Positions 31,908 to 51,331 of a stretch of DNA of 64,000 nucleotides are shown here, in pieces; position 1 is the stretch's first letter; each line of letters opens with the position of its first letter. The notes beneath the pieces are model-generated. The model was not told the origin of the DNA and did no database searches. It worked only from the letters and a program-made list of their open reading frames with translations. The DNA lies in NCBI RefSeq assembly GCF_000024465.1, contig NC_014010.1, positions 2,269,001-2,333,000 of the forward strand. The letters are read 5' to 3'. Both the position numbers and the translations under genes were made by a program. The DNA is from Candidatus Puniceispirillum marinum IMCC1322. GTDB lineage: Bacteria; Pseudomonadota; Alphaproteobacteria; Puniceispirillales; Puniceispirillaceae.

Positions 31908-32792
31908 CTAGGCTACGCCCTTAGATGTGTTTGCAAAGCTCTTCATCGCTTCTTCATGTAGAATGGCCATTGTTTCACGCTTATATTCAAACGCTTCGGC
32001 AGAGGTCAACATGCTGTAATTGCGCGGACGAGGAAGTTTGATATCGATAATTTTTTCAACCTTTGTCGGCTTGTTAGTCAGAACAATCAGATTGTCAGCA
32101 AGGAAGATAGCTTCGTCAATTTCCGATGTAACAAATACATTTGTACGACGGTTCTCTTCAAATAGCTGCAGGAAGAATTCCTGCATAAGGCTACGCGACA
32201 TCGCATCAAGGCCACGGAATGGCTCATCCATGATCATCACTTTAGGCTCGTTGATAAGGGCGCGAGCCAGTTCGGCACGACGCTGCATACCACCAGAAAG
32301 CTGGAGTGGGAATTTGCTCATGAATTCACCAAGCCCAACTTTAACAAGTAGCTTTTTGGCTTCTTTTTCAAGATCCGCTGTTTTCATATCACCCCGTAAT
32401 TTGGGGCCAAAGACAACATTTTCAAAGGTTGTTTGCCATGGGATCAGCGCGGTTTCCTGAAACACCACCATCCGGTCTTTACCCGGGCCAGTGATTTCTT
32501 CACCATCAATTGTGATCTTGCCTGAGTCTGGCTCTTCAAAGCCGGCAAGCAAATTCACCAGAGTTGATTTTCCACAACCAGACGGCCCCACAATAACTGT
32601 CATTTCACCTGGCGCAATCGACAGACTCAGATTATCGAGAATCTGATCTGACAACCATTCTTCACCATAGGCCTTTGATACATTTGTTAGTTCGATCGTG
32701 CTACCTGTCGCTGGCGTACTTGCCGCTTTGTTTGATTTGGTAGCACCGCCAGCACTAGCAGCGCGGGCGATGGAATTACGATTGGTCAACAT
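31908..32792 (-). CDS. ABC transporter ATP-binding protein (sulfonate/nitrate type), second copy
   Basis: ATPase of a sulfonate/nitrate/taurine-class importer. Walker A is IVGPSGCGKSTLVNLLAGF (about residues 62-80), the signature is LQLSGGMQRRAELARALI (about 163-180), and Walker B is VMIMDEPFRGLDAMSR. The N-terminus has a 30-residue Ser/Ala/Thr-rich extension before the domain. It is the last of four transport genes (permease, ATPase, permease, ATPase) on the minus strand. With the binding protein at 35727-36833 these probably import methanesulfonate or a similar C1/C2 sulfonate. Two different ATPases imply a heteromeric ABC engine. Confidence 0.9.
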   Translation of the reverse strand: MLTNRNSIARAASAGGATKSNKAASTPATGSTIELTNVSKAYGEEWLSDQILDNLSLSIAPGEMTVIVGPSGCGKSTLVNLLAGFEEPDSGKITIDGEEITGPGKDRMVVFQETALIPWQTTFENVVFGPKLRGDMKTADLEKEAKKLLVKVGLGEFMSKFPLQLSGGMQRRAELARALINEPKVMIMDEPFRGLDAMSRSLMQEFFLQLFEENRRTNVFVTSEIDEAIFLADNLIVLTNKPTKVEKIIDIKLPRPRNYSMLTSAEAFEYKRETMAILHEEAMKSFANTSKGVA

Positions 32793-32847
32793 TGGTATAC
32801 TCCCTGTAACCTTTAATTGTTCTGTTGCCTAGTATTACAAACGCTGT

Positions 32848-33681
32848 CTAGAACAGACGCCGCCATGGCATAAAGAATATCCCTAATTTACGAATTGAGC
32901 TCGAACAGAGATAGCCCGCGATACCGATGGAAATCATGCCAACGACAATATGCTCAAGTGAACCACCCATATATGAGCTCCAGATGAAGAAGCCGAGGCC
33001 ACCGCCACCTTGTGTACCACCACCAGAAATCATTTCGGCAGCCAGCACCACTTCCCAGGTGATGCCCATACCCACGGCGGCACCTGTAAAGATTGACGGC
33101 AATGTGCCAGGCAGAATGATTCTGTAGAACAGATGCCATTGGCTTGCGCCCATTGACTGCGCCGCACGGAGATACCGTACGTCGATTGCCCGCGCACCAC
33201 CAAGAACGTTGATCACGATGGTAAAGAACGCCCCCAGGAAGGTCACAAACGCGATAGACATTTCGTTTGTAGGCCAGAAAATCAGTGAAGCTGGCACCCA
33301 AGCTAGTGGTGGAATTGGACGAAGAATTTCAAATGGCGGGAAGAAAATCTCCCGGAAATACTTGTTCACTGCCAGCATTAGTCCAAATGGAATACCCACG
33401 ATCATGGCTACAAGGAATCCAGCCAGAACACGTTGGAAGCTAGCTACCCAGCTTTGCCAATAGCCTAGGTTAGGAACAACATCAGCCCAAGTGATCAGAA
33501 CATCAACTGGTGGCGGGACAAGCCCGATGCCGAGCATGTCATAACCTGTCCAGTCATCAATCAATGCGCCAAACTGCCACACAACTAAAAACACAAAGAT
33601 AGACATGATTGCGCGTCTCAATTCAACGCTTTGTATTAGTTTTGAAAATTTAGAACGTTTTTGCACAGTACTATTTCCCAT
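32848..33681 (-). CDS. ABC transporter permease (sulfonate/nitrate type), second copy
   Basis: Six-helix permease of the SsuC/TauC/NrtB class, 277 residues. The coupling loop that meets the ATPase is seen as YLRAAQSMGASQWHLFYRII (about residues 173-192), followed by LPGTLPSIFTGAAVGMG. A hydrophobic segment with ILRPIPPLAWVPASLIFW (about 118-135) is the family marker. It lies between the two ATPase genes. It is a paralog of the permease at 34609-35496, so the channel is likely a heterodimer. Confidence 0.9.
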   Translation of the reverse strand: MGNSTVQKRSKFSKLIQSVELRRAIMSIFVFLVVWQFGALIDDWTGYDMLGIGLVPPPVDVLITWADVVPNLGYWQSWVASFQRVLAGFLVAMIVGIPFGLMLAVNKYFREIFFPPFEILRPIPPLAWVPASLIFWPTNEMSIAFVTFLGAFFTIVINVLGGARAIDVRYLRAAQSMGASQWHLFYRIILPGTLPSIFTGAAVGMGITWEVVLAAEMISGGGTQGGGGLGFFIWSSYMGGSLEHIVVGMISIGIAGYLCSSSIRKLGIFFMPWRRLF

Positions 33682-33707
33682 AATTCAATACCTTTCCGAT
33701 CTGTGGC

Positions 33708-34568
33708 CTAAGCCATCTCGCGTTCGCCAGCCTGAAAGGCCTTGACTGCTTCTTCGTGGACCGCTTCATTCACTTCGCTCAGCAAGGCTCGGAAAGCTTC
33801 GGATGACTGCGTCTCGTATGAACGTGGACGCGGGATATTCACTTCGACAGTTTTCTTGAGCTGACATGGGCGTGTGGTAACCACATGCGCCTTGTCACCA
33901 AGGAAAATGGCTTCCTCAAGATCATGCGTGATGAAAAAGATTGTAACCTTTGTTCTGTCATAAGTCTCAAGCAGTGATTCATGCATGATCTGTTTGGTCA
34001 ATGCATCCATCGCGCGATAAGGTTCGTCCAGAAGCAGAACTTTTGGATCATTGATCAACGCACGTACAATCTCGGCACGACGGCTCATGCCCGAAGACAC
34101 TTCGCCGGGAAATTTTTTGATCACATCGCCAAGGCCGGCCTCGGCAAGCATTGTGCCAGCCTTATCCATTGCCTGTGCTTTGTTAAGTGCTCCTTGAACC
34201 ATTGGGCCATAAGCAACATTCTCGACCAGTGTTTTCCATGGAAACAAAGCTCCATTTTGGAACACAACCATACGATCAGCACCCTGATCAGCCTTTTCAC
34301 GGCCTGGACCACATAGCATCTCACCATCAACGTCGATCTGACCTTCGGTGATAGAGTGGAAACCTGCAATCGCATTCAGCAAAGTCGATTTTCCACAGCC
34401 AGACGGACCAACAATCATACAGATCTCGCCACCGGCAATTTCCATTGAACAATTGTCAACAGCCTTAACATTAACCCCTTCTGGGTCATAGATTTTGGTT
34501 ACATTACGAATACTGATGGCACCTTTTGTAGCCGCCGCACCGTTTTTTGAAGCGTTTTGTTTTGTCAT
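33708..34568 (-). CDS. ABC transporter ATP-binding protein (sulfonate/nitrate type), first copy
   Basis: ATPase paralogous to the one at 31908-32792. Walker A is IVGPSGCGKSTLLNAIAGF (about residues 53-71), and Walker B is VLLLDEPYRAMDALTK (about 177-192). The signature is EVSSGMSRRAEIVRALI: the LSGGQ core reads VSSGM, with Ser in place of the first Gly, so one of the two ATP sites of the transporter may be weakened. The spacing to the upstream permease is 40 bases. Confidence 0.9.
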   Translation of the reverse strand: MTKQNASKNGAAATKGAISIRNVTKIYDPEGVNVKAVDNCSMEIAGGEICMIVGPSGCGKSTLLNAIAGFHSITEGQIDVDGEMLCGPGREKADQGADRMVVFQNGALFPWKTLVENVAYGPMVQGALNKAQAMDKAGTMLAEAGLGDVIKKFPGEVSSGMSRRAEIVRALINDPKVLLLDEPYRAMDALTKQIMHESLLETYDRTKVTIFFITHDLEEAIFLGDKAHVVTTRPCQLKKTVEVNIPRPRSYETQSSEAFRALLSEVNEAVHEEAVKAFQAGEREMA

Positions 34569-34608
34569 AACCTTATAATCCCTTTTTTAAATCGGTAACG
34601 AGGCGCTA

Positions 34609-35496
34609 TTAGCGATCCTGCTGAGCTAGTTCGCGAACTTGCCAGTCCATGAGCTTGTCACCAAGAATACGCACCATGACTGATGTCACATATCCAATGA
34701 AGCCGAGTGTGATCATGCCGATCACCATAGGTACGGTAACGTTGTTCATGTAGGCATCAACGATCAGATAGCCCAAACCAAGGTCACCAGAGACCATTTC
34801 AGCGGCAACAAGCGAGAACCAAGCCACACCGATTGATATCTGCAATCCTGTAAAGATGAAAGGAAGTGCGCCCGGCACAACGACGTTTTTGAACACGTCC
34901 CATTTGCTTGAACCCAGACAACCAGCAGCGCGGAAATAATCATCATCGATTGAGTCCACGCCAAGCATAGCATTCAATGTTGTCACGAACAAAGACGCCA
35001 AGGTGGCAAGGAAGATAACAGGCCCCTCAAAACCTGGCAGAAGCAGGATCGATAGCGGTACCCATGCAAGAATAGGAATAGGGCGGAAGAGTTCCAGAAG
35101 GGGGAAAGCGAAGTCACGTACCTTTCTAGACCAGCCCATGAATAGGCCAAGTGGCACACCAACACCGGTCGCAATCGCAAAGGCAATGGCGATACGCTGG
35201 CAACTTACCCGGATATGTTCGTAATATTCTGCGGTAAAGATCGATATGCCCTGGAACGGCTCAGGTGAGAACCAGTCCTTAGAAATGGCAACTGGGCCAG
35301 GCAGTTTGGTAAAACGCCAAACTTCAAGCCCTTCACAAAGTATCCAGTAGGTGAACAGCCACAATCCTACGCCTATTGCGGTTAGATATGGTGTTGGCGT
35401 AGATAACGCCTTTACAATTCGATATTGGACTAAGTCCAACCCCTTGGGTGCCTCGGTACGCCGTTGGCGTCCTGTAGCAACTTGTTGTGTGGCCAT
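34609..35496 (-). CDS. ABC transporter permease (sulfonate/nitrate type), first copy
   Basis: Six-helix permease of the SsuC/TauC class, 295 residues, with an Arg/Gln-rich cytoplasmic leader of about 25 residues. The coupling loop is YFRAAGCLGSSKWDVFKNVV (about residues 187-206), and ELFRPIPILAWVPLSILL is the family segment (about 135-152). It is the first gene after the hairpin that follows the binding-protein gene. An operator-like near-palindrome (35532-35546) lies 35 bases before its start, so it may have its own regulated promoter as well. Confidence 0.9.
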   Translation of the reverse strand: MATQQVATGRQRRTEAPKGLDLVQYRIVKALSTPTPYLTAIGVGLWLFTYWILCEGLEVWRFTKLPGPVAISKDWFSPEPFQGISIFTAEYYEHIRVSCQRIAIAFAIATGVGVPLGLFMGWSRKVRDFAFPLLELFRPIPILAWVPLSILLLPGFEGPVIFLATLASLFVTTLNAMLGVDSIDDDYFRAAGCLGSSKWDVFKNVVVPGALPFIFTGLQISIGVAWFSLVAAEMVSGDLGLGYLIVDAYMNNVTVPMVIGMITLGFIGYVTSVMVRILGDKLMDWQVRELAQQDR

Positions 35497-35726: not shown

Positions 35727-36833
35727 TTACTTTGCGTTGATAACACCAACTGGTGAAGTCATGCCGCGGGCGCGAAGAACGTCTTCAGCGAACTGTGGCA
35801 TAACACCGCCTGAGCGAATTGTAGGTGTCGCAGCAGGCTTTTTCTTCAGTGAGTATAAGAACGCTGTAGCGTCAGCCATCAGGTTACGAGCGCGATCACT
35901 GATAACAAAGTCCAGTGTTAGCTTGTTAGAACCAGCGATTGGGCTGTCATACAGAGATGCTTTCAGGATTGACTTGTCAATCTGTTCTGTCTGTGCTTCG
36001 GCCATTGTTGCAACAGCGTCTGCGTTAGCTGGATCAGCCACGAAGATCTGCGCATCAAGCTCGGCGTTCAACCAACCAGTAACGGCATCAGGGCGCTGCT
36101 CGATCAGATCGTTCAGCATAACCATGAAGGCACCATCAAGTGCGCCAAAATCGATGCCTGAAGCGCCGCGACGTGCGATACCGCTTTCAACCATCTTTGT
36201 GGCAGTTGGCTCCCAGATAGCAGCCGCATCCAACTTACCAGCACGGAAGTTAGTTGTGATAACTTCGATGTTCTGGTTCAGGTACTTGCTTGGCTTAATG
36301 CCAGACTCAGCGAATGCAAGCTGGGCAAAACGGTCAGTACAAGCGCCGTGTGGTGCAGATGTGATTTTGCCATCCATCCACTTAACAGCGTCTCTACCGT
36401 TAGCAAAGTCAGGGGCGTCGTTACGAACTAGGAAGATGTTACACTGCTGCATTGATGTGCCAAGAGCTGCAACAATACGAATGTCTGTACCACCACGCTC
36501 AGGGATTACTTTAAATGTAGATGCAATCGCTGGCATGTCACCCATGTAACCAATATGCTGCTTCTCACCAGCCATCGCATTCACGATAACTGAACCTTGA
36601 AGACCAACTTGGAAGTCAGCGGTTGAGCCAGCAGGTAGGTGATTCTTCCAGAATGCCATGCCGTTGTTGACAACGCCTGTCCATGATTCTGTGTAATAAG
36701 GCTGATAACCAATTACCAAATCAACAGCTTCACCTTCGTTACCAAAATCTACAGTAGCCATACCTGTTAATGGAGACATTGCCATTGCACCAACCGCAAT
36801 TGCTCCAAGAGTCTTAGATAGCTTGAAAGTCAT
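35727..36833 (-). CDS. ABC substrate-binding protein (sulfonate/nitrate class, probable methanesulfonate receptor)
   Basis: Periplasmic binding protein of the SsuA/TauA/NrtA class, 368 residues. A Sec signal peptide covers about residues 1-26 (GMATV). The mature start DLVIGYQPYYTESWTGVV is the usual lobe 1 strand, and HIGYMGDMPAIAS (about 93-105) and TTNFRAGKLDAAAIWEPTATK (about 193-213, abridged) form the ligand cleft. It is the first transport gene, divergent from the Rieske oxygenase operon, which argues that its ligand is that enzyme's substrate. By analogy with MsmE this would be methanesulfonate. Nitrate is less likely because no nitrate reductase is nearby. Confidence 0.88.
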   Translation of the reverse strand: MTFKLSKTLGAIAVGAMAMSPLTGMATVDFGNEGEAVDLVIGYQPYYTESWTGVVNNGMAFWKNHLPAGSTADFQVGLQGSVIVNAMAGEKQHIGYMGDMPAIASTFKVIPERGGTDIRIVAALGTSMQQCNIFLVRNDAPDFANGRDAVKWMDGKITSAPHGACTDRFAQLAFAESGIKPSKYLNQNIEVITTNFRAGKLDAAAIWEPTATKMVESGIARRGASGIDFGALDGAFMVMLNDLIEQRPDAVTGWLNAELDAQIFVADPANADAVATMAEAQTEQIDKSILKASLYDSPIAGSNKLTLDFVISDRARNLMADATAFLYSLKKKPAATPTIRSGGVMPQFAEDVLRARGMTSPVGVINAK

Positions 36834-37155: not shown

Positions 37156-39552
37156 ATGCCAACAATCAACGATCAGCAAGAGACAAATAAGTCACAGGCG
37201 CCTCATAGCAACTGGATTGATCAGAAGATTTTTTCGGATAGTAATATTTCGACTGAAGAACAGCAAAAAATATTCAAAAATATCTGGGTGCCTGTTTGTC
37301 ACGAATCTGAATTACCCGAACCTTATGATTTTCGTACATCAAGCATCGGAAACGAGAACATTATAATTCTGCGGGCCGCTGACAACAAGGTCCATGCTTA
37401 TTTAAATGTGTGTCCGCATCGTGGCATGCTCATCGAGCGCCGACCACAAGGAACGTTCCTTGAAGGGCAGGCATCGGGTAATCCAAAGCGTATTACATGT
37501 ATGTTCCATGCTTGGCAGTTCGACATGAAAGGCAATTGTGTCTATGTGGCGCGCGAAAAAGAAGGGTATCAGGATCGCTTTTCAAAAGACGAGGCAGGTC
37601 TGCGCCGCTTGCGCTGCGAGATAAAATTCGGTGGCTTTATTTGGGTGAATATGAATGACAAGCCATCCGTATCGCTTGAAGATTGGGTTGGTGCGCCACT
37701 TAAAGTGCTTACTGGTGCCCTTGATGACGAGCCGTTAGAGGTTTTTCATTATCACAAGGAAATTTTAAGCACCAATTTCAAGCTTAACCACGACAGAACC
37801 ATCAAATTTCATCAGGATTTTATGAAACAGATCGGTGATTCGTCTGTAACGCCAACACGAAAAAATGATTTTGAATTTGGTCACGCAGTTGCAGGCACCT
37901 TTGGCGAAAGCGGAAATGGTCAGGATGCTCTGACATTCCCAAAAATGAAACCAGGTCAATGGTTTATGGTTGATCTATTTCCCGGCTTTAACTTTAGCTT
38001 GCATGGATCAGCTTTGAGCGTGAGCACAATCACGCCGCTTGGCCCTAACGAGGTCATGGTTGAATATCGCGGGCTTGGACTGAAAAGCGATAATGCCGAG
38101 GCACGAAGCGCCAGAGTAAAGCATCACAATAAAATCTGGAGCCCATTCACCATTGGCGGTTCGGTGGTTAATGAAGCGGAAACTGGCGATGTAGCGCCTA
38201 GCGAAGACGCTTTGCGCCACTATTATAATGAGTGGGGGCGCTGGATGAAGCGCAACCCAGAAGATCTGGACAAGGCCTATTCTGCTGCGCCTTCTGAGCC
38301 GGCGTCAAAAGATAGTACTGCAAAGACTGGTTATAATGTCGTGGTTGTCGGTGCCAGTCATGCGGGTATTAGTTTTGCTGACAAAATGCGGAAAAGCGGG
38401 TTTGAAGGGAATATCACCATTCTTGACCGTCAAAGCGGTGGCCCAATGGAGCGTCCGCCACTATCAAAGGCGTTTTTGATTGATGAAGATGAAAAGGTTA
38501 ATCCGGTTTTTCTGCTAAAGCGGAAAAAATGGTACAGTGATCAGGACATCACCTTGCGAACCAAAACCAACGTTCAAAAAATTGATCTTGAGGCAAAGTC
38601 ATTGCTTCTCGAAGATGGCGAGCAAGTTCATTTTGACAAGCTGGTTATAGCCAGCGGGGCTGTGCCACGGATGTTGCCTAGTGCCGAAGGGATGCAGAAT
38701 GCGTTTATTCTGCGGCAGCCTGCTGACGCCATAGCAATCCGCAACAAGATGAAGGAGGCAAAAAGCGCCATCATCATCGGTGGTGGATATATCGGCCTTG
38801 AAGTTGCGGCCTCATTCCGGAAAAAGGGGATCGAGGTTAACGTTATCGAAGCCGCCGACAGAATCCTTGCCCGTGTTGCGAGCCCATCGACAGCTGACTA
38901 TTTGTCGGACCTTCACAACAGCCATGGGGTGAATTTGTCAACCGGTATCGGCGTTGAAGATATCATGCAGGACAATGGCGCCTTCAGTGGTGTCAAGCTG
39001 ACTGATGGAACCGTTCTGACCGGTGATATGCTGATTGTCGGTATTGGTGTGGTGCCGGATAGCACATTGGCCAATGATGCAGGCATTGAAACACAGCGTG
39101 CAGATGGCGGCGCAATTCTGGTTGATAGCCATATGTATTCAAGTCATCCAGATGTGTTGGCGATTGGTGATGTTGCTTTACAACGTAGCGCTTCGTTAGC
39201 CATTGAATCAGTTCATAATGCCCAAGAAACTGGTGCAATAGCAGCTTCTACATTGATGGAAGTCGCACCGCCTACCATTCAGACGCCATGGTTCTGGTCG
39301 GATCAGTATGATGCCAAACTGCAATCAGTTGGTGTTGTGCCGGTGGGTGATGAAGAGGTCTATCAGGTTACACGACCAGGTAGCCGCGAGGGGGGAATTT
39401 CGTTCTGGAGCTTCAGACAAAAACGGCTTGTTGCGGTAGAGGTGTTCAATGACCCGGCTACTTACATGATGGCGAAACAATGCCTTGATTCTAATGTATC
39501 ACCAGACCCGGATCAAATTGCCGACATAACCTATTCGCCACTTGATCAATAA
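37156..39552 (+). CDS. MsmA-like Rieske protein fused to FAD reductase; degenerate mononuclear-iron site
   Basis: A 798-residue fusion. Residues about 30-380 match the alpha subunit of methanesulfonate monooxygenase. The Rieske ligands are C86-P-H88 and C115-M-F-H118, separated by 26 residues, the unusual CxH-x26-CxxH spacing reported for MsmA. The following catalytic domain is present, but its iron-binding segment reads NHDRTIKFHQDFMKQIG (about 211-227). The E/D-x2-H-x4/5-H ligand set is broken (Lys, Gln and Ile at the aligned positions). Residues about 392-798 are a ferredoxin-reductase-like NAD(P)H:FAD domain (VVVVGASHAG, then IIIGGGYIGLEVAASF), linked by a Ser/Ala/Lys-rich stretch. The likely role is electron delivery from NAD(P)H through its own Rieske centre to the partner at 46575-47669. 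It leads the oxygenase operon. Confidence 0.9.
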   Translation: MPTINDQQETNKSQAPHSNWIDQKIFSDSNISTEEQQKIFKNIWVPVCHESELPEPYDFRTSSIGNENIIILRAADNKVHAYLNVCPHRGMLIERRPQGTFLEGQASGNPKRITCMFHAWQFDMKGNCVYVAREKEGYQDRFSKDEAGLRRLRCEIKFGGFIWVNMNDKPSVSLEDWVGAPLKVLTGALDDEPLEVFHYHKEILSTNFKLNHDRTIKFHQDFMKQIGDSSVTPTRKNDFEFGHAVAGTFGESGNGQDALTFPKMKPGQWFMVDLFPGFNFSLHGSALSVSTITPLGPNEVMVEYRGLGLKSDNAEARSARVKHHNKIWSPFTIGGSVVNEAETGDVAPSEDALRHYYNEWGRWMKRNPEDLDKAYSAAPSEPASKDSTAKTGYNVVVVGASHAGISFADKMRKSGFEGNITILDRQSGGPMERPPLSKAFLIDEDEKVNPVFLLKRKKWYSDQDITLRTKTNVQKIDLEAKSLLLEDGEQVHFDKLVIASGAVPRMLPSAEGMQNAFILRQPADAIAIRNKMKEAKSAIIIGGGYIGLEVAASFRKKGIEVNVIEAADRILARVASPSTADYLSDLHNSHGVNLSTGIGVEDIMQDNGAFSGVKLTDGTVLTGDMLIVGIGVVPDSTLANDAGIETQRADGGAILVDSHMYSSHPDVLAIGDVALQRSASLAIESVHNAQETGAIAASTLMEVAPPTIQTPWFWSDQYDAKLQSVGVVPVGDEEVYQVTRPGSREGGISFWSFRQKRLVAVEVFNDPATYMMAKQCLDSNVSPDPDQIADITYSPLDQ

Positions 39553-39628
39553 TGACTTTGGAATTGATAAGTGGCAATTGGTTCGCAGTAAAAAACACGG
39601 AACAGGATAACGTCTTAATAAAGCATAG

Positions 39629-39650
39629 TTAGGGTTCGACTTAACCCTGA
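39629..39650 (+). terminator. Weak intercistronic hairpin
   Basis: TTAGGGTT and AACCCTGA form an 8-bp stem with one G-T pair around a CGACTT loop, followed by TTTCAATT. It lies in the 218-base gap between the fusion gene and the beta-subunit gene. It may act as a partial terminator or processing site. The stem is short and the T-run poor. Confidence 0.35.
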
Positions 39651-39770
39651 TTTCAATTGCGAATTACCAACTAAGTCTGAAAAATCTTATGATTTGAGAG
39701 CGTTCGCTTAATGAAGCTTTCAAGGCCTAATAACAATATAAATAGCCATCATATGGCGAGAGGAGATGCA

Positions 39771-40259
39771 ATGGGACAGGATATCGAAAAGCAGATTGAA
39801 AGAACAATCTATAAAGCGGCTATCGCTTTGGATGAGCTCAATTGGGGGAACTGGTTCGAATTGTGTGATGATTCATTTCATTATTCGATTACGTCTTTCA
39901 GCCCTGAAATCAATAAAGAGATGATTTACTTCTCTGGAGATAAAAAAGAGCTTCAAGGTCTGATGGATATGCTACCAAAGCATAATACAGATCATTCACC
40001 GCTTCGCCGCCATACATCTGTATATACTGTCGATATTTCTGATGATGGGCAGACAGCAGAAGCTGTAAGTTCGGTTGTTGTGTATCAAAATATGCTCGAT
40101 GGCATCAATGCGCATCTAGACTCAGGCGAAAGCCGTCTTTTTGTGGTTGGTAAATATCATGACAAATTCACCATTAAAGATGGTGTGGCAAAATTTGTTA
40201 ATCGTGAAACCAAACTTGATAACCGTCGTATGGACAAAGGGTCGCATTGGCCAATCTAG
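39771..40259 (+). CDS. msmB: Ring-hydroxylating oxygenase beta subunit (MsmB-like)
   Basis: Small beta subunit of a Rieske oxygenase, with the cone-like SnoaL/NTF2 fold. It stabilises the alpha ring and does not carry metal. I take ATG 39771 because a strong AGAGGAGA lies 6 bases before it; the frame itself is open from 39711. The 162-residue product shows the family pattern of an N-terminal helix (YKAAIALDELNWGNWFELC), then RRHTSVYTVDISDDG (abridged) and RLFVVGKYHDKF. It lies between the Rieske-reductase fusion and the Rieske ferredoxin genes, matching the msmABCD order. Confidence 0.85.
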   Translation: MGQDIEKQIERTIYKAAIALDELNWGNWFELCDDSFHYSITSFSPEINKEMIYFSGDKKELQGLMDMLPKHNTDHSPLRRHTSVYTVDISDDGQTAEAVSSVVVYQNMLDGINAHLDSGESRLFVVGKYHDKFTIKDGVAKFVNRETKLDNRRMDKGSHWPI

Positions 40260-40335
40260 TCGGTAAAAGCTATTTGCGGTGAAGGTCTGTCAAAGTTTCA
40301 AAGATCAGGCCGAATTATGGAAGGAAACCATTGAT

Positions 40336-40737
40336 ATGAGCTGGATTAAAGTTTGCGCTACGAGTGAAGTGCCACCAGGTTCAATAAAAAAACTTTGGGC
40401 CAGCGTCGGCGGCGGAATTCCGCTTGTGGTCGCGCATCATAAGGCTGGTTTCACCGCGTTACCTCCTATTTGCCCTCATATGGAAGAACCATTGGACGAA
40501 TCTGGAACAATTCTGGGTTGTAAGCTAACCTGCACAAAGCATTTATGGTCTTGGGACCTGGAAACGATGGAATTGCAGGATGAGGCTGAATTGCCACTTA
40601 AAACCTATGATACCAAGATCGAAGATGACAATGTTATGGTTTTCGTGACCGAGCAACTTGAGTATGATTTCAATGAAGAAGACGACATTGATGATGACGA
40701 ATTCTTTGGCGATGATGACGATGACGATTTTGATTAG
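40336..40737 (+). CDS. msmC: Rieske [2Fe-2S] ferredoxin with acidic tail (MsmC-like)
   Basis: Rieske-type ferredoxin that carries electrons to the oxygenase. The cluster ligands are in CPHMEEP (about residues 48-54) and CTKHLWSWD (about 66-74), with 17 residues between the pairs, the normal spacing. ATG 40336 is preferred, with GGAAGGAAA about 8 bases upstream. A longer GTG frame from 40279 lacks support. The last 25 residues are almost all Asp and Glu (EEDDIDDDEFF, then GDDDDDDFD), an unusual tail that may steer docking to a basic partner surface. With the preferred start the protein is 133 aa. Confidence 0.88.
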   Translation: MSWIKVCATSEVPPGSIKKLWASVGGGIPLVVAHHKAGFTALPPICPHMEEPLDESGTILGCKLTCTKHLWSWDLETMELQDEAELPLKTYDTKIEDDNVMVFVTEQLEYDFNEEDDIDDDEFFGDDDDDDFD

Positions 40738-40910
40738 GGATATGACAAACTAATCGCTAAATATCTAACAAGTGTCAAAATTGAATAATTGATGCTATGC
40801 CATCAGTTTTTATAAACAAAACAGTTGATTGTCTGTATTACATGGAAAAGAATTTCATTTTATTCTATGGGTTGTATAGATGATCATGATGTTTTTAGGG
40901 GTTAATTAAG

Positions 40911-43799
40911 ATGGATGCACCAATTAGTGACAATAACAAGGATCCGGTTATTGATCTTCAGACGAATCCTGCGGATGAGATTAAAACCACAACTTGTTAC
41001 ATGTGCGCATGCCGATGCGGGATCAAAGTCTATCTCAAGGATGGCCAGGTACGCTATATTGAGGGTAACCGCGATCACCCCGTGAATAAGGGGGTTCTGT
41101 GTGGCAAGGGTGCTTCTGGCATCATGACCCAGGTGTCGCCTGCGCGTTTGACCTCGCCGCTGAAACGTGTTGGCCCCCGCGGTTCAGGTGAATTTGCTGA
41201 AATTTCATGGGATGAAGCGCTTGACCTGGCATCAAGCTGGCTTGGTGATGTGCGGGCAAAAGACCCGCGTAAACTTGCCCTATTTACCGGACGCGATCAA
41301 AGTCAGGCGCTAACAGGCTGGTGGGCCTCACAGTTCGGCACACCTAATTTTGCCGCGCATGGTGGCTTCTGTTCAGTCAATATGGCGGCTGCCGGTTTAT
41401 ATACATTCGGCGGATCGTTCTGGGAATTTGGCGAGCCTGACTGGGATAAAACCGAATATTTCATGTTATGGGGTGTGGCCGAGGATCATGGTTCAAACCC
41501 AATCAAAAAGGCACTTGGCAAGCTGAAAGAACGTGGCGTCAAGGTTGTCGCCGTCAACCCCGTTAGAACGGGTTATGGCGCGATTGCTGATGAATGGCTA
41601 GGCGTAAAGCCGGGAAGTGACGGTCTGTTCGTTTCGGCATTGATTTATGAATTGATGCAGGCTGGCAAGGTCGATCTTGATTATCTTGTGCGCTATACCA
41701 ATTCACATTGGCTTGTTATCCAGAATCCGGGTGCGGCCAATGATGGTCTGATTGCCCGTGATAAAGATGGCGAGCCATTGGCCTGGGATAAAAACCAGAA
41801 CAAAGCTATTGGTGCCAATACCCTAGAGATCGATCCAGCATTGAACGGGTCATTCAAGCTGGCCGATGGATCGCAGGTCGTACCGGTGATGTCATTGATT
41901 GCAGAGCGCTTCCTAGATAGCAAATTTGCACCTGAGTCAGTCGCCGAAGAAATCGGTATTCCGGCTGACACAATCAAGCGTATTGCAAGTGAACTTGCCG
42001 AAGCGGCTTTTGAGCGTGAAATTGTTATCGATCAGCCGTGGGTTGACTGGGCTGGCCGCAAACATGACAAGATGATTGGTCGTCCGGTATCAATGCATGC
42101 GATGCGCGGTATTTCGGCGCATTCAAACGGCTTTAATACATGCCGCTTGATTCACCTGCTTCAAATTTTGCTGGGTTCAATCGATTGTCCTGGCGGTTTC
42201 CGCTACAAGCCACCTTATCCAAAGACGATTCCACCGGGTATCCGTCCAGCAGGTAAAGTTGATCAGGTCAAGCCCAATACACCGCTTCCGGGTCCGCCGC
42301 TTGGTTTTGTAAAGGGGCCAGAAGATTTGCTGGTTGATGACAATGGAAAGCCATTGCGTATCGACAAAGCCTATTCGTGGGACGCGCCAGTGTCGGCGCA
42401 TGGCCTGATGCATATGGTCATCAATAATGCGGGTACGATGGATCCGTATAATATTGATGTGCTGTTCATGTATATGGCCAATATGGGCTGGAATTCGTCG
42501 ATGAACGTGCCTGATACATTGCGTCATCTGACAGCTAAAAACCCTGATACAGGTGAATATGTCATTCCAAAAATCATCTATTCGGATGCGTTTTATTCGG
42601 AAACAGTGCCTTATGCGGATCTGATCCTGCCGGATACGACTTATCTTGAAAGATGGGATTGTATTTCGATGCTGGATCGCCCAATTTCAGAACCTGATTC
42701 TGCAAATGATGCCATTCGTCAGCCAGTCATTGAGCCAGATCGTGACGTGCGCCCGTTCCAGACGGTCATGCTTGATCTTGGCGCGCGCCTTGGTTTGCCA
42801 GGCATGACCAATGAAGATGGTGCAGCCAAATATCCAGGCGGGTATGCTGATTATATCATCAATCACCAGCGTGCTCCGGGCATTGGCCCGCTTGCAGGGT
42901 GGCGTGGTGAAGATGGTTCGAAATATGGTGTCGGCGAGCCGAACCAGAACCAGCTGCAGGAATATATTGATAATGGTTGTTTCCATGCCCATGAACTTGA
43001 GCCGGAAATGCGTTATTATAAGCATGCCAATAAAGCCTATCTGGACTGGGCTAAATCGGTTGGGTTTAATGGGTCAACAGACCAGATTGTCTTTGAGCTC
43101 TATAGCGAAACCTTGCAGAAATTCCGCCTAGCAGCCCAAGGGCATGGTGATATTCAGCCGGAAGATTCGCATCGTGAGCGAATTACGTCCTTCTTCGATC
43201 CGTTGCCATTCTGGTATCCGACTTTTGAAGGCGAAATGGTCAATAAAGATGACTATCCGTTTCATGCAATTACCCAGCGCCCCATGCATATGTACCATTC
43301 ATGGGGATCACAGAATGCGTGGCTTCGTCAGATCACCAATGCAAACCGTTTATATATGAATCGTGAAAAGGCCGAAGCTCTGGATATCCATGATGATGAC
43401 TGGGTCTGGCTTACCAGCCACATAGGCCGCGTCAAATGTCAGGTGAGTCTGATGGAAGGCTGTAATCCTGATACATTGTGGACATGGAATGCGATTGGCA
43501 AGCGCGGCGGTGCATGGGGTCTTGATAAGGATGCCCCAGAGATGAAGCAGGGCTTCCTGCTTAATCATCTGATCTCGGAATTATTGCCCGCACGTGAAGG
43601 TGGCTATCGCTATTCAAATAGTGACCCGGTTACTGGGCAGGCTGCATGGTATGATTTGCGGGTGAAAATCAGTAAAGCTTTGCCAGAAGAAGCAGGCACT
43701 ACCGAGCCTTATTTCGAGCCGTTCAAGGCGCGTTCCGATGCCCCATTACCTGATGAGTTGGCGTATGGTACGCAATTTAACAAGGGATCAAAATCATGA
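40911..43799 (+). CDS. soeA: Molybdopterin oxidoreductase, probable sulfite dehydrogenase catalytic subunit (SoeA)
   Basis: A 962-residue molybdoenzyme of the DMSO-reductase superfamily. The N-terminal 4Fe-4S site is TTCYMCACRCGIKVYL (about residues 27-42), with a fourth Cys in GVLCGKGASG (about 66). A Cys in GGFCSVNMAAAG (about residue 155) is the likely Mo ligand. There is no Tat signal, so the enzyme is cytoplasmic, which fits SoeABC rather than DmsABC. SoeA oxidises sulfite to sulfate and passes electrons through SoeB and SoeC to quinone. The gene follows the oxygenase operon and overlaps soeB by 4 bases, consistent with disposal of sulfite released from a sulfonate. Other substrates cannot be excluded. 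Confidence 0.82.
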   Translation: MDAPISDNNKDPVIDLQTNPADEIKTTTCYMCACRCGIKVYLKDGQVRYIEGNRDHPVNKGVLCGKGASGIMTQVSPARLTSPLKRVGPRGSGEFAEISWDEALDLASSWLGDVRAKDPRKLALFTGRDQSQALTGWWASQFGTPNFAAHGGFCSVNMAAAGLYTFGGSFWEFGEPDWDKTEYFMLWGVAEDHGSNPIKKALGKLKERGVKVVAVNPVRTGYGAIADEWLGVKPGSDGLFVSALIYELMQAGKVDLDYLVRYTNSHWLVIQNPGAANDGLIARDKDGEPLAWDKNQNKAIGANTLEIDPALNGSFKLADGSQVVPVMSLIAERFLDSKFAPESVAEEIGIPADTIKRIASELAEAAFEREIVIDQPWVDWAGRKHDKMIGRPVSMHAMRGISAHSNGFNTCRLIHLLQILLGSIDCPGGFRYKPPYPKTIPPGIRPAGKVDQVKPNTPLPGPPLGFVKGPEDLLVDDNGKPLRIDKAYSWDAPVSAHGLMHMVINNAGTMDPYNIDVLFMYMANMGWNSSMNVPDTLRHLTAKNPDTGEYVIPKIIYSDAFYSETVPYADLILPDTTYLERWDCISMLDRPISEPDSANDAIRQPVIEPDRDVRPFQTVMLDLGARLGLPGMTNEDGAAKYPGGYADYIINHQRAPGIGPLAGWRGEDGSKYGVGEPNQNQLQEYIDNGCFHAHELEPEMRYYKHANKAYLDWAKSVGFNGSTDQIVFELYSETLQKFRLAAQGHGDIQPEDSHRERITSFFDPLPFWYPTFEGEMVNKDDYPFHAITQRPMHMYHSWGSQNAWLRQITNANRLYMNREKAEALDIHDDDWVWLTSHIGRVKCQVSLMEGCNPDTLWTWNAIGKRGGAWGLDKDAPEMKQGFLLNHLISELLPAREGGYRYSNSDPVTGQAAWYDLRVKISKALPEEAGTTEPYFEPFKARSDAPLPDELAYGTQFNKGSKS

Positions 43800-44545
43800 C
43801 ATCTCTTCCCGCTACTACCAAGAAAAAGCTTGGCCTTGTCATCGACCTCGACACCTGCGTTGGCTGCCAGGGATGTGTGACGTCTTGTAAAGAATGGAAC
43901 ACTTCGGGCTATTCAGCGCCATTGACCGATATTGACCCTTACGGTCAGGATCCGCAAGGCGCATGGCTGAACCGTGTGCATGGCTTTGAGCTAGGCGAAG
44001 GTCTGGAAAGCCGGACGGTGCATTTTCCACGTTCATGCCTGCATTGTGAAGAACCTGCTTGTGTGACAGTTTGCCCCACAGGTGCTAGTTATAAGCGTGA
44101 AGAAGATGGTATCGTTCTGGTCAATCCGGACACCTGTATCGGCTGTAAACTTTGTTCATGGGCGTGCCCGTATGGTGCGCGTGAATATGATCCATCACAT
44201 GGTGTGATGAAAAAATGTACATTGTGCGTTGATCGTATTTATAACGAAAATCTGGAACCTGAAGATCGGCAGCCTGCCTGTGTGCGTGCCTGTCCGACAG
44301 GGGCACGCCATTTTGGTGATCTGGGTGATCCGGAAAGTGACGTTTCGCAACTTGTTGCCGAGCGTGAAGGGTTCAACCTGCTGGAAGAGTTTGGTTACAA
44401 GCCCGTAAATAAATATCTGCCACCACGTAAACGCCGTGATGCAGTCACCTCGCAACCTGCAGCATTGAAAGAAACAGTTGGCGCCAGTGATGGTACCAAG
44501 ACAGAAAAATTCTTTGCCTGGGCTGACCGCAAGCTTAGCCGATAA
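43796..44545 (+). CDS. soeB: 4x[4Fe-4S] ferredoxin subunit (SoeB-like)
   Basis: Electron-transfer subunit with four cubane clusters, 249 residues. Four Cys groups are readable: CVGCQGCVTSCKEW (about residues 21-34), CLHCEEPACVTVCPTGA (about 81-97), CIGCKLCSWACPYGA (about 113-127) and CTLCVDRI with ACVRACPTGA (about 141-169). The gene overlaps soeA by 4 bases and is followed by soeC after 17 bases. It wires the molybdenum subunit to the membrane anchor. The same architecture occurs in DmsB and PsrB, so the name rests on context and the lack of a Tat signal on SoeA. Confidence 0.85.
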   Translation: MTSLPATTKKKLGLVIDLDTCVGCQGCVTSCKEWNTSGYSAPLTDIDPYGQDPQGAWLNRVHGFELGEGLESRTVHFPRSCLHCEEPACVTVCPTGASYKREEDGIVLVNPDTCIGCKLCSWACPYGAREYDPSHGVMKKCTLCVDRIYNENLEPEDRQPACVRACPTGARHFGDLGDPESDVSQLVAEREGFNLLEEFGYKPVNKYLPPRKRRDAVTSQPAALKETVGASDGTKTEKFFAWADRKLSR

Positions 44546-44562
44546 GATAAGAGGACAAAAAG

Positions 44563-45501
44563 ATGCATCCCGCTTATTCCGTTATTTTGTTTACCACAGC
44601 ATCAGGTGCTGGTTATGGCCTGTTGATGTTGCTATCGCTGGCATGCTTTATGGGCGTTTTGCCAGAAAGCCAAGTTTACGGCTTTGTTAGCATGGCACTG
44701 TCGCTTGGCTTGATCACCGTCGGTTTGCTGTCTTCAATGGCGCATCTGGGCCATCCTGAACGCTCTTGGCGTGCTGTTTCGCAATGGCGTACATCATGGC
44801 TGTCACGCGAAGGCGTTTTTGCCATCGTAACCTATGTACCAGCTGGCATATTCGGTATTTCATGGGTGTTCTTTGGAAAGCTTGATGGCTTTGTGCCTTA
44901 CGTGGCCTTGCTAACCGCTATCCTATCCGTCGTAACTGTCTATTGCACAGGCATGATCTATGCGTCTCTGCGCACGATCAGCGCGTGGAACCAGAAGATG
45001 ACCGCACCAAATTACATTATCATCGCGTTGGCTAGTGGGGCGATCTTACAGGTTCTGCTACTAACTATCTTTGATCAGATTAACACCTCGTCGATTGGTC
45101 TGGCCTTGATGCTCGCCGCAACAGCTTTGGTTGCTAAATGGCTGTATTGGGTCAAGATTGATAGAACCTCGATCGGTTATACAGTTGAACAGGCCATCGG
45201 TTTAAAGGGGCAAGGTAAAATCCGTCAGATTGAACCTGCGCATACACAGCCTAACTATGTCATGCGTGAAATGGGCTATGCCGTGGCGCGCAAACATAGC
45301 CGGCAGATGCGGATGCTATCTACATTGCTTTGCTTTATCGTGCCATCGGTTTGCATGGTGCTAAGCCTTGGTATGGCCGAACCTCTGTTCTTTGCCTCAG
45401 TCGCGACAGCTAGCCTTGCTGTTGGGCTGGTCATGGAACGGTGGTTGTTCTTTGCCGAAGCTGTCCATGTTGTGACACTGTATTACGGCAGTTCGCAATA
45501 A
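44563..45501 (+). CDS. soeC: Membrane anchor subunit, DmsC family (SoeC-like)
   Basis: A 312-residue membrane protein of the DmsC/NrfD-like anchor family with about eight helices. The start MHPAYSVILFTTASGAGYGL and the motif HLGHPERSWRAVSQWRTSWL (about residues 66-85) mark the family, including the first-helix Gly pattern and the loop that meets the FeS subunit. It should pass electrons from SoeB to the quinone pool. An AAGAGGAC ribosome binding site precedes the ATG. It ends the soeABC group. An unrecognised gene follows after about 50 bases. Confidence 0.85.
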   Translation: MHPAYSVILFTTASGAGYGLLMLLSLACFMGVLPESQVYGFVSMALSLGLITVGLLSSMAHLGHPERSWRAVSQWRTSWLSREGVFAIVTYVPAGIFGISWVFFGKLDGFVPYVALLTAILSVVTVYCTGMIYASLRTISAWNQKMTAPNYIIIALASGAILQVLLLTIFDQINTSSIGLALMLAATALVAKWLYWVKIDRTSIGYTVEQAIGLKGQGKIRQIEPAHTQPNYVMREMGYAVARKHSRQMRMLSTLLCFIVPSVCMVLSLGMAEPLFFASVATASLAVGLVMERWLFFAEAVHVVTLYYGSSQ

Positions 45502-45565
45502 TACAAACTGTATTATCCTTATTTTATATGCTGAAAATTTTATAATTTTCTATGTGGAGAAGCGC

Positions 45566-46384
45566 TTGACCTATAACTGGCCAGATATTTCAACATTTAC
45601 CAGCCCAGATTATAAAAAAGCGCGGTATGAAGCTCAAAATGCGGTGTTTTGGTTGGCTAGGGGTGCGCATAGCTATCTAGAGCCATTGCCTCAAAACAGG
45701 CATTTAGAACTGGAATGGCAAAGTGATCGCGAGACGCTTTGCACAAAGGTATTTGACGGTGACCTTCAAATCGGCCTTAGCATACCTGAACTGGAAATTT
45801 TCTTTTGTGAGAATGGTGAAAAGGTCAGGCATAGTTTCTGGTTTGATGACCGTACACCTGCTTATGCCGAAGCCTGGTATCTTGTTGAGCTTTTGCATCG
45901 TGACCGTGACCGGTCTAAATTTACCATTGAGCTTCCGTTTGAGTCGAAAGACTTCTTCCTGGGCGATACGGATGAACATGATGCGCCAGCTGTGGCTGTT
46001 GAGCTAAAAGCGATGCATGACTGTTTTATCATTGCTGCCGATGTGTTGTCGCAAGTGCAACAAAAGTTAGCCGATAGCGGCGATGTTGTTGCTGAAATAG
46101 GGGGCATTTCCTGCAAACCTGAGAATTTCACCCTTAGTTTTGAAATTGTGACTAAGCCAGATGATCATGCCAATGTTCTGGTGGGGATGAGTCTTGGTGA
46201 TGATCTGCGGCCAGCGCCGTTTTTCTTTGTCAGCAAAAACTATGCAGAATCAGCCAAAAATAACCATGCACTTGATTTTGATGCGGCCAATTTATTGTCG
46301 CTAAATAAAATGTCTGAGCAGAAAATGGATAACGCAACTGTCATCAATCAACTGCTTCAAGATGCAAAATCTTGTCTGGGGTGA
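45566..46384 (+). CDS. Unrecognised protein between soeC and the second MsmA-like gene
   Basis: A soluble protein of about 272 residues with no signal peptide, membrane helix or motif I recognise. It is acidic and aromatic-rich, with DRTPAYAEAWYLVELLHRDR at about residues 95-114. Four Cys residues are scattered and do not form a metal motif. The start is probably TTG 45566 with GTGGAG 6 bases upstream; GTG 45554 is the alternative. Its place between soeABC and the Rieske-less oxygenase gene suggests an accessory or assembly factor for one of them, but this is inference. It could be a molybdoenzyme chaperone, although it does not show the TorD/DmsD pattern. Confidence 0.6.
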   Translation: MTYNWPDISTFTSPDYKKARYEAQNAVFWLARGAHSYLEPLPQNRHLELEWQSDRETLCTKVFDGDLQIGLSIPELEIFFCENGEKVRHSFWFDDRTPAYAEAWYLVELLHRDRDRSKFTIELPFESKDFFLGDTDEHDAPAVAVELKAMHDCFIIAADVLSQVQQKLADSGDVVAEIGGISCKPENFTLSFEIVTKPDDHANVLVGMSLGDDLRPAPFFFVSKNYAESAKNNHALDFDAANLLSLNKMSEQKMDNATVINQLLQDAKSCLG

Positions 46385-46574
46385 TCAGACACAGGTAAAA
46401 GTGACACCCCATAAGGGGTTGTGGTTATTATTGCGATAAGGAAAAAGATGTTTTTCATAGCTTCTGGCTATTAGACAATTCTCAAATATAACAACGAAAT
46501 TGTTGACACTTCATGCCGAAAAGCCCGAATATGTGTTCAGTTAAATATATTACCGATCGTTGATGGAGGGTTTT

Positions 46575-47669
46575 ATGCCACCAAGAAATCATAAGAAATG
46601 GTTAGCCACACCAAAAATCGAGTATATCTCAAGTGAGTGCTATAACAATTATGAGATATATGAGCAGGAAATCGAGCATATCTTCGCCAAAGTATGGGTG
46701 CCAATGTGCCACAAAAGTGAGATGGCAAACAAAGGCGATTTCAGATCAAGCCAGATTGCGTTTCAAAATGTCGTTGCTGTAAATCATGGTGATAACATCA
46801 AAGTGTATCTATGCCCACAGATCGACAGACTTACTGGCAACGGTATTTCAGTCGATGGTTTGACTGAGCTGCATAGCGGTGTTCAGCATGGTGGTATGGT
46901 TTGGGTAACGCTTGATCCTAACCCAACACAGAGCATTGACGAGTGGACATGTGGTGCGTTTGATTGCATCGCTGAAGCTATCGATACAGAAGAAATGGAA
47001 GTTTTCCATTATCATAAGTCAATCATTGATACGAATTACAAGCTATGGCACGACACCAATAGTGAGTTCTATCATGACTTCATGCACTATCATAACCGTG
47101 TAACGGGCTTCAACGATGCGTATTTTGCACGAAAGAACATCCCTTTCGACAATGGTCACGTGAATGTGAGCAGCTTCACAGTGCAGTATGAAGAGTATGA
47201 AGGCTTCGAAGATAGAGGTGAATTGTCATTCCCTAATCTGCCACCGAACCAGTGGTACATGGTTGACCTGTTCCCAGGCTTCAACTTCAATCTAAGAGGC
47301 AGTGCCTATCGCAGTGACTCAGTCACACCACTTGGTCCGAACAAAGTTCTGATCGAATTCCGTGGCTATGGTCTGAAGAAAGACACACCAGAAGAGCGTG
47401 CGACAAGAATTGAGCACCATAATTCTATCTGGGGTCCATTTGGCCGTAACCTGCATGAAGATCTGATCGGTGTTGCTGGTCAGGGCACAACCATGCGTGA
47501 AGGTACAGAAGCCCGCAGAATTCTGCATGGTCGCCATGAAGGTGGAACGATTCATGATGAAGTAGGCATGCGCCATTACTATGCTGAATGGGGCAAGCAT
47601 CTGGGTGTAAGTCCAGAGAATCCACTTGGTCATGCGGTTGAAGATGACATGGTTGTTGCAGCCGAATAG
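46575..47669 (+). CDS. MsmA-like oxygenase alpha paralog lacking the Rieske domain
   Basis: A 364-residue paralog of the first half of the protein at 37156-39552. They share VWVPMCHKSE near the start, EVFHYHKSIIDTNYKLWHD in the middle and MVDLFPGFNFNLRGSA later. The Rieske subdomain is missing: the distance from CHKSE to GGMVWV is about 50 residues shorter, and no CxH or CxxH remains. By contrast the mononuclear-iron segment is well formed, D160-x3-E164-x2-H167, followed by H171 and H173. It therefore looks like the catalytic subunit that must receive electrons from another chain, most simply the fusion protein. I place the start at 46575 (GAGGG 4 bases upstream); ATG 46563 is possible. A strong terminator follows. 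Confidence 0.88.
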   Translation: MPPRNHKKWLATPKIEYISSECYNNYEIYEQEIEHIFAKVWVPMCHKSEMANKGDFRSSQIAFQNVVAVNHGDNIKVYLCPQIDRLTGNGISVDGLTELHSGVQHGGMVWVTLDPNPTQSIDEWTCGAFDCIAEAIDTEEMEVFHYHKSIIDTNYKLWHDTNSEFYHDFMHYHNRVTGFNDAYFARKNIPFDNGHVNVSSFTVQYEEYEGFEDRGELSFPNLPPNQWYMVDLFPGFNFNLRGSAYRSDSVTPLGPNKVLIEFRGYGLKKDTPEERATRIEHHNSIWGPFGRNLHEDLIGVAGQGTTMREGTEARRILHGRHEGGTIHDEVGMRHYYAEWGKHLGVSPENPLGHAVEDDMVVAAE

Positions 47670-51084: not shown

Positions 51085-51098
51085 ACCATAAGACGTTA

Positions 51099-51165
51099 AT
51101 ATAGCAGGAACCAATCAGACTATGCTTTGGCATGTTAATCTGACACTTAACGGTTCCTGCTATAT
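51099..51165 (+). terminator. Long nested stem-loop after the panB-like gene
   Basis: A perfect 14-bp outer stem (ATATAGCAGGAACC / GGTTCCTGCTATAT) encloses 39 bases that can pair again (TCAGA/TCTGA, then ATGC/GCAT). It lies 15 bases after the panB-like stop. It may be a terminator, but the following CTCATTTATTTTG is a poor T-run, so a structured 3' UTR or small RNA is also possible. Confidence 0.55.
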
Positions 51166-51331
51166 CTCATTTATTTTGAGTGATGCTTGTATGTAACATC
51201 TGCCACAAAATGTATTCGCATTTGCGATAACATGCTGGCTTGATTGTATATATCAGAATTTACAAACCCCCATATGGCCTGCCCGTATTAGGCGCAAGCT
51301 GGCAACGTTGATTAGAAGTTGAGAGACCCTG

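Follow-up and report, generated by a model that had tools for sequence, protein, structure and literature searches.

The window, a 64,000-nucleotide stretch of the genome of Candidatus Puniceispirillum marinum IMCC1322 (NC_014010.1, positions 2,269,001 to 2,333,000), carries a gene cluster of the methanesulfonate monooxygenase (MSAMO, MsmABCD) type. The genome is a single contig of 2,753,527 bases. On the plus strand of the window lie, in order, a gene for an MsmA-type alpha subunit fused to a reductase, genes for a beta subunit and a Rieske ferredoxin, three genes like SoeABC or DmsABC, a conserved unannotated gene and a gene for a short alpha subunit. Sulfonate-type ABC transporter genes run divergently from the fusion gene on the minus strand (Table 1). 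The two alpha proteins have complementary losses: the fusion keeps the Rieske centre and has lost the mononuclear-iron ligands, and the short protein keeps the iron site and has lost the Rieske centre. We think it likely that these two genes are the two halves of one methanesulfonate-type monooxygenase.

The Rieske half and the catalytic half

The fusion has C86, H88, C115 and H118 in the arrangement CXH-X26-CXXH, with a 26-residue spacer that is described as typical of MsmA (PMC4433239), and the same motif was found in 14 of the 14 fusions compared. When aligned with intact MsmA, K217, Q220 and K224 of the fusion stand at the positions of E164, H167 and H171 of the short protein. A deletion has removed the 'GRNLHED' segment, in which the third iron ligand lies (H294-E295-D296 in the short protein). 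By sequence alignment, none of the 14 fusions keeps the iron-helix ligands or the third-ligand segment, and no iron ligands were found elsewhere in the fusion. Looser ligand patterns match three fusions (L067, L068 and L070) at a conserved GH past the deleted helix and one (L066) at an unrelated GRN. Iron ligands and a Rieske centre do not occur in the same chain, and neither chain is a complete MsmA. An earlier note on this DNA had described a full Rieske centre in the fusion and the replacement of its iron ligands by Lys, Gln and Ile. The centre, with its MsmA spacer, was confirmed and so was the loss of the ligands; the Ile was misplaced, since I226 is aligned with the non-conserved H173 of the short protein, while Lys (K224) takes the place of the conserved second His. 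The dead catalytic remnant of the L066 fusion holds about 50 extra residues not present in intact MsmA.

The Rieske half is joined to a GR-type (glutathione-reductase-like) NADH reductase, replacing the FNR-type MsmD. In three intact loci tested, including one from a SAR116 metagenome-assembled genome (L093), the gene after the ferredoxin is a frame of 349-363 amino acids with Fer2, FAD_binding_6 and NAD_binding_1 domains, as expected of MsmD. The reductase of the window's cluster is the fused GR-type enzyme and not a separate MsmD, the rest of the genome not having been searched for MsmD.

The short protein has the motif D160-x3-E164-x2-H167-x3-H171 and D296. Its Rieske region around residues 80-95 is largely deleted, the Rieske motif is absent, and Pfam assigns Ring_hydroxyl_A only, so the description in the earlier note (no Rieske subdomain, D-x3-E-x2-H plus His kept) holds. 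In alignments with cumene dioxygenase and its relatives, E164 and H167 fall on the D and H of the 'SDMYH' motif, and D296 aligns with D356 of terephthalate dioxygenase (TPADO) in a weak match (E 0.46). The iron ligands of TPADO are described as H210, H215 and D356, with D207 in the electron path (PMC9060491). The putative ligand identities in the short protein rest on these alignments to solved enzymes. Across 15 bacterial short forms, 22 intact MsmA and 104 distinct phage copies there is no variation at E164, H167, H171, H294, E295 and D296; the phage rows were preselected by a motif covering E164, H167 and H171 and by absence of the Rieske motif, so that only H294, E295 and D296 are an unbiased test in phages.

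AlphaFold2 models were obtained for the short form (pLDDT 86, pTM 0.86) and for the alpha part of the fusion (pLDDT 77, pTM 0.80). The former matched 7c8z_A with Z 33.7 and rmsd 2.5 over 311 aligned residues, and the latter matched 7q04_F with Z 30.0 and rmsd 2.8 over 316. As modelled, both chains keep the whole alpha-subunit fold of alpha3beta3 oxygenases.

Distribution of the pair among bacteria

A scan of 136 genomes of the order gave the short form in 12, each of which also has a fusion-type match; these 12 are related and do not stand for 12 independent events. One of these matches is a probable fragment of 136 amino acids (G090), another fusion is split over two frames (G091), and G087 has two fusion-short pairs. 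No orphan short form was detected in the scan of the 136 genomes. G128 has an intact MsmA of 424 amino acids and no split pair. In a class-wide search of 385 genomes drawn from a larger group, the split pair was found only in G000 and G087, both SAR116.

We mapped 72 loci from a collection of species-representative genomes. Eighteen of them have the Rieske-less short form (L066-L082 and L123), and in 10 of the 18 the fusion lies in the same stretch in the order fusion, beta, ferredoxin, unknown, short. In three others (L069, L077 and L123; G087 twice and G091) the fusion is about 11-12 kb away, and contig ends cut L072, L073 and L074. The last two, L080 and L081, have no mapped msm neighbours, lie on phage-like contigs and group among phage sequences in trees. 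An alpha with both centres was found in 52 loci, 44 with the long and 8 with the short spacer. Two loci, L122 (cut by a contig end) and L125 (in two frames), were for that reason not taken as natural splits.

A complete MsmA was not found elsewhere in the window's genome. Five other alpha-like Rieske proteins (L001, L002, L003, L005 and L006) have spacers of 16-17 residues. Of the checks that the earlier note had proposed, the search for a full MsmA thus came out in favour of the pair; the survey of co-occurrence did so in part, as the two forms were never independent in the bacteria scanned and phages carry the short form alone.

In another alphaproteobacterial family (f33), Rieske-less alphas adjoin an alpha with a Rieske motif in two genomes (G294 and G468), and in a third (G164) the neighbouring alpha keeps the Rieske region and has no proper ligands. 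These alpha pairs (L283, L285 and L284), which are of the short-spacer family, suggest that Rieske-less alphas have come to lie next to Rieske-bearing ones elsewhere too.

Reciprocal constraint on the two halves

Sequence conservation was compared in 14 fusions (91 pairs), 15 short forms (105 pairs) and 17 intact MsmA (136 pairs). The fusions omit the frame-split protein of G091 and the fragment of G090. The short forms are the window's and 14 of the 18 of the bacterial collection, omitting L072 (incomplete), L078 (unknown bases) and the phage-like L080 and L081. Both the 17 intact MsmA used here and the 22 used for ligand invariance come from the 44 long-spacer intact loci.

Each split form is conserved where it keeps its centre. 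In the fusions, mean identity was 91.8% in the Rieske domain, 43.6% in the catalytic remnant and 73.9% in the reductase; in the short forms it was 93.1% in the catalytic domain and 76.4% in the Rieske remnant. Intact MsmA gave 85.3% and 82.2%. These identities were nearly unchanged in the nine loci with both forms plus the window. Median dN/dS, from 3 to 10 unsaturated pairs each, was 0.012 (Rieske), 0.202 (catalytic remnant) and 0.056 (reductase) for the fusion, and 0.05 (Rieske remnant) and 0.012 (catalytic) for the short form. The phage copies have the same slope, with 85.6% identity in the catalytic part and 53.8% in the Rieske remnant (5,356 pairs).

Other genes of the locus

Coordinates of the cluster are listed in Table 1. 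As in MSAMO operons, a beta subunit gene is adjacent, a ferredoxin gene is present and an MsmE-type transporter is divergent. The beta subunit gene comes after the alpha gene in split and intact loci alike.

Table 1. Genes and domains of the msm-type cluster; positions are those of the window.
Feature	Position	Strand	Basis
Fusion protein, 798 aa, MsmA-type alpha plus FAD/NADH ferredoxin reductase	37156..39552	+	Pfam Rieske 44-132, Pyr_redox_2 393-693, Reductase_C 712-791
Rieske domain of the fusion, residues 44-165, C86/H88/C115/H118, 26-residue spacer	37285..37650	+	91.8% mean identity, 91 pairs, 14 fusions
Dead catalytic remnant of the fusion, residues 166-380	37651..38295	+	Alignment; 43.6% mean identity, 14 fusions
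Fused GR-type ferredoxin reductase, residues 393-792	38332..39531	+	Pfam; NCBIfam HcaD/AndAa-like, under equivalog cut-offs
MsmB-like beta subunit, true start perhaps inside the frame	39711..40259	+	Ring_hydroxyl_B 29.3 bits (cut-off 27)
MsmC-like Rieske-type ferredoxin	40279..40737	+	Pfam Rieske 41.5 bits
Molybdopterin oxidoreductase, SoeA/DmsA-like, likely sulfite oxidation	40911..43799	+	Pfam, NCBIfam
4Fe-4S subunit, SoeB/DmsB-like	43796..44545	+	Pfam, NCBIfam
SoeC/DmsC-like membrane anchor	44563..45501	+	Pfam DmsC 83.5 bits
Conserved protein without Pfam family, beside many msm clusters	45554..46384	+	Pfam, locus map
Short alpha subunit, 364 aa, iron site intact, Rieske centre deleted	46575..47669	+	Pfam Ring_hydroxyl_A only; ligands invariant; structure model
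Divergent MsmE-like sulfonate-binding protein	35727..36833	-	NCBIfam SsuA_fam 63.9 bits, under cut-off; same placement in many intact loci
ABC transporter genes, 2 permeases and 2 ATPases, MsmF/G/H-like	31908..35496	-	Translations, gene order shared with related loci; names by reading

The three SoeABC/DmsABC-like genes interrupt the msm run in the window. In the other mapped split loci the interval from ferredoxin to short gene has no detected SoeA-like gene, and five of them (L068, L069, L071, L073 and L123) have one downstream of the short gene. Such molybdoenzyme clusters are named dmsABC or soeABC, and mentioned alongside msmA, in what is available of SAR116 genome papers (PMC8547437, PMC12262181). 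The conserved protein before the short gene, about 276 amino acids long, has relatives near split and intact msm clusters (L096, L103, L108, L111 and others), and 16 residues are invariant across 14 aligned sequences including the window's. Its only profile matches in the Protein Data Bank (PDB) were weak and implausible. Farther downstream (50197-53008) lie genes that, named by reading, are like those for ketopantoate hydroxymethyltransferase and formate-tetrahydrofolate ligase, which fits one-carbon use.

Phages carry the catalytic half

Phage HMO-2011, which infects this host, encodes a short form 75.8% identical to that of the window. It was the only phage with a short form among 50,697 records, where it has two accessions. 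Two scans of viral contigs were made. The first, with the short form, matched at least 600 stretches, at least 595 of them coding for a relative, from which the 80 best loci were taken; the second used the fusion alignment, with the patterns PVCHESE and PKRITCM, and gave 64 loci, none of them with a Rieske motif. Together with HMO-2011 these make 145 viral open reading frames (ORFs), not all independent, because HMO-2011 itself seems to be present in both collections (L138 and L238). The iron motif is present in 142, the other three being cut fragments, and the Rieske motif in none of the 145. A homologue of the beta subunit, ferredoxin or reductase was likewise not detected in the viral DNA of the 80 best and 64 further loci.

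At least one homologue of 18 HMO-2011 proteins was found in 68 of these 144 loci. Of 20 proteins taken from five viral loci and compared with PHROGs, 9 had no match; the families matched by the others include virion structural, DNA-ejection and ribonucleotide reductase ones. In one case (L143) the short gene lies on a 316-kb viral contig, far larger than HMO-2011, so more than one kind of phage seems to carry it. Phages with the catalytic half alone probably need the infected cell to provide the other one.

Origin of the two halves

In a tree of the Rieske domain, the 14 fusions form one clade (support 98/96) within the intact MsmA of Filomicrobium, Hyphomicrobium and SAR116 (99/90), with L093 as their neighbour (83/84). 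The fusions thus descend from an ordinary alphaproteobacterial MsmA. In a tree of 63 rows, 15 bacterial short forms and one phage row form a clade (100/98) that is nested inside phage rows; the nesting nodes have support 97/99 (31 rows, HMO-2011 outside) and 100/100 (36 rows). This suggests phages as the source of the bacterial short gene. Intact MsmA of gammaproteobacteria are the group (100/96) in which three other phage representatives fall, which stand for 10 of the 104 distinct phage proteins; their position suggests a second loss of the Rieske domain in phages. The aligned sequences L219, L223 and L233 have no Rieske site, and their deletion ends are unlike those of HMO-2011. The phage copies nearest to representatives of the gammaproteobacterial type are L219, L220, L221, L223, L226, L233, L235, L245, L258 and L263.

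Approximately unbiased (AU) tests rejected neither a clade of the 18 phage rows apart from the bacterial short forms (log-likelihood difference 12.7, p 0.337) nor a single clade of all Rieske-less rows (19.7, p 0.269). The phage-to-host direction and the two losses are therefore favoured by branch support and not proven. We put forward tentatively, as a possible course of events, that phages invented the split. A captured MsmA would have shed its Rieske domain and drawn on the host subunit that delivers electrons, SAR116 would have taken the phage version into the msm operon, and the host MsmA, thus freed, would have lost its iron site and fused to a reductase; a second phage lineage, whose copies are near gammaproteobacterial MsmA, would have lost the Rieske domain separately. 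If this is true, the catalytic half of a core sulfur-cycle enzyme in a bacterium stems from a virus, and the half-enzyme of the phages fits into machinery of the host.

A proposed composite enzyme

In TPADO, the iron is described as lying 12.2 A from the neighbour's cluster and 42 A from that of its own chain (PMC9060491). As the electron step in such rings crosses from alpha to alpha, an iron-less and a cluster-less chain can in principle complete each other. We propose that NADH would reduce the FAD domain joined to the first chain, that electrons would pass to the Rieske cluster of the fusion, probably via the ferredoxin encoded at 40279, and that they would then cross the subunit interface to the mononuclear iron of the short chain. 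This iron would activate O2, and methanesulfonate would be converted to formaldehyde and sulfite. The most likely arrangement of the two chains would be one mixed alpha/alpha-prime ring on MsmB-like beta subunits, because each has retained a complete alpha shell and ordinary Rieske oxygenases pass electrons from alpha to alpha. Phages with the short gene alone would supply extra or variant catalytic subunits, fed by the Rieske-reductase chain of the host. The interpretation in the earlier note is supported in part. Its core idea, that two complementary half-degenerate alphas work only together, is well supported by the co-occurrence in 12 of 12 genomes (in one by a probable fragment), by the search of the genome in which no intact MsmA was found, by the reciprocal constraint and by the two folds.

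Several points weigh against such a ring enzyme. A three-membered ring cannot alternate two kinds of subunit, which leaves the stoichiometry unexplained, and electrons from the fused reductase could be delivered outside a ring, as in NdmCDE. The short form is found in phages that have no fusion. The 12 genomes are related to one another, and just 4 have a completeness of at least 90%. Synonymous distances are mostly saturated, hence the few pairs behind the dN/dS medians of the split forms. We found no account of this strain growing on methanesulfonate in the literature searched, as far as its text was available.

The strongest alternative, which we nevertheless hold to be unlikely, follows NdmCDE, the 7-methylxanthine N-demethylase of caffeine degradation in Pseudomonas putida CBB5. 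In this reading the short and beta subunits would form an oligomer of their own, on which the fusion would dock as a free Rieske reductase, and there would be no mixed alpha ring. The precedent, already named in the earlier note, agrees with the description of that enzyme, in which the Rieske domain of NdmC is split off and joined to the reductase NdmD (PMC4408171), and the Rieske half of the fusion is likewise joined to a reductase. However, the fusion keeps an entire dead alpha shell that matches alpha subunits over its full length and would be needless for a docking donor; the remnant is drifting fast (43.6% identity), which limits this argument.

It is more improbable still that the halves are independent, the short protein using another Rieske protein or having a non-oxygenase role and the fusion serving another partner. 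Three pairs (two in G087, one in G091) do not form a single run, and phages have the short form without the fusion. Against this stand the co-occurrence in all 12 genomes with no orphan short form in the scan of the order, and the constant gene order in 10 of the 18 short-form loci, the other eight being three cut by contig ends, three with the fusion outside the stretch and two phage-like. Decay of one or both genes into pseudogenes or duplication remnants is scarcely credible: the catalytic remnant of the fusion is eroding, but the frames are open in 14 fusions (that of G091 is frame-split), the ligands of the retained halves are invariant and their dN/dS is low, in contradiction to a pseudogene, and G087 maintains two copies of the pair. 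Chance or an assembly error was ruled out, as the same complementary pair recurs across SAR116.

If the composite enzyme is real, msmA needs care as a marker of methanesulfonate oxidation, because a single 'msmA' match in SAR116 or a phage would be half an enzyme, and many viral msmA calls would be a subunit unable to work without the host. Phage msmA is listed as an auxiliary gene for the use of methanesulfonate or organosulfur compounds in what is available of a review and of virome papers (PMC4928673, PMC10134843, PMC9636769). It would be an unusually clear phage metabolic gene reliant on a specific host protein, and possibly a viral gene taken into an enzyme of the host. Most surprising are the role of the phages and the possibility that the catalytic half of the host enzyme is viral in origin. 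Since the two centres lie in separate genes and can be titrated, the pair also lends itself to tests of how electrons cross the interfaces of Rieske oxygenases.

Comparison with known systems

In 2015 the Rieske motif was reported in only one of the two 'MsmA' proteins of IMCC1322 and as absent from HMO-2011 and virome MsmA; in the portion of that paper available, the HMO-2011 protein is treated as an MsmA and a need for a partner is not raised (PMC4433239). A reciprocal split or phage dependence was not found described in the open-licence literature, part of which was accessible as extracts. The earlier note, which knew of no such split for methanesulfonate-type enzymes, had missed the 2015 observation on the Rieske motif, the GR-type reductase in place of MsmD, the two-chain algal oxygenase described below, and the phages with the catalytic half alone among whose genes the bacterial short genes nest.

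Like canonical MSAMO, the window has the 26-residue spacer, the iron motif, a beta subunit, a ferredoxin and a divergent MsmEFGH transporter as described for that system (PMC4433239). In canonical MSAMO, unlike the window, MsmA holds both centres in one chain (44 of the 72 mapped loci) and an FNR-type MsmD follows (the three intact loci tested). The MsmA of HMO-2011 has the same short Rieske-less form as the window's, and the phage carries it alone.

The chlorophyllide a oxygenase (CAO) of Micromonas pusilla is likewise a Rieske oxygenase in two polypeptide chains. Each of its chains is said to lack the centre of the other, a finding attributed to Kunugi et al. in 2013. It was earlier suggested to be a heterodimer and is described as likely something like a trimer of dimers (PMC9615114). 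It differs from the pair in being an algal chlorophyll enzyme, and no reductase fusion is seen in its available description.

By its published description, NdmCDE was the first enzyme with its Rieske domain detached and joined to a reductase (PMC4408171). Judged by description alone, it resembles the pair in having a Rieske-less catalytic subunit and a Rieske centre on the reductase, and the joining of the Rieske half to a GR-type reductase brings the split closer still to NdmCDE. As a counterpart of NdmE, which is like glutathione S-transferase, the adjoining conserved protein gave neither a Pfam match nor a convincing PDB profile match. Unlike in NdmCDE, the donor here is a degenerate MsmA alpha and not an isolated Rieske domain, and the reductase is GR-type where NdmD is described as an FMN/[2Fe-2S] reductase. 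The MsmB-like beta subunit and Rieske ferredoxin in the cluster, the MsmA lineage, the sulfonate context and the phages with the catalytic half also set it apart. The pair very probably forms one oxygenase, and the likeness to NdmCDE that we draw is one of working and not of membership of that system.

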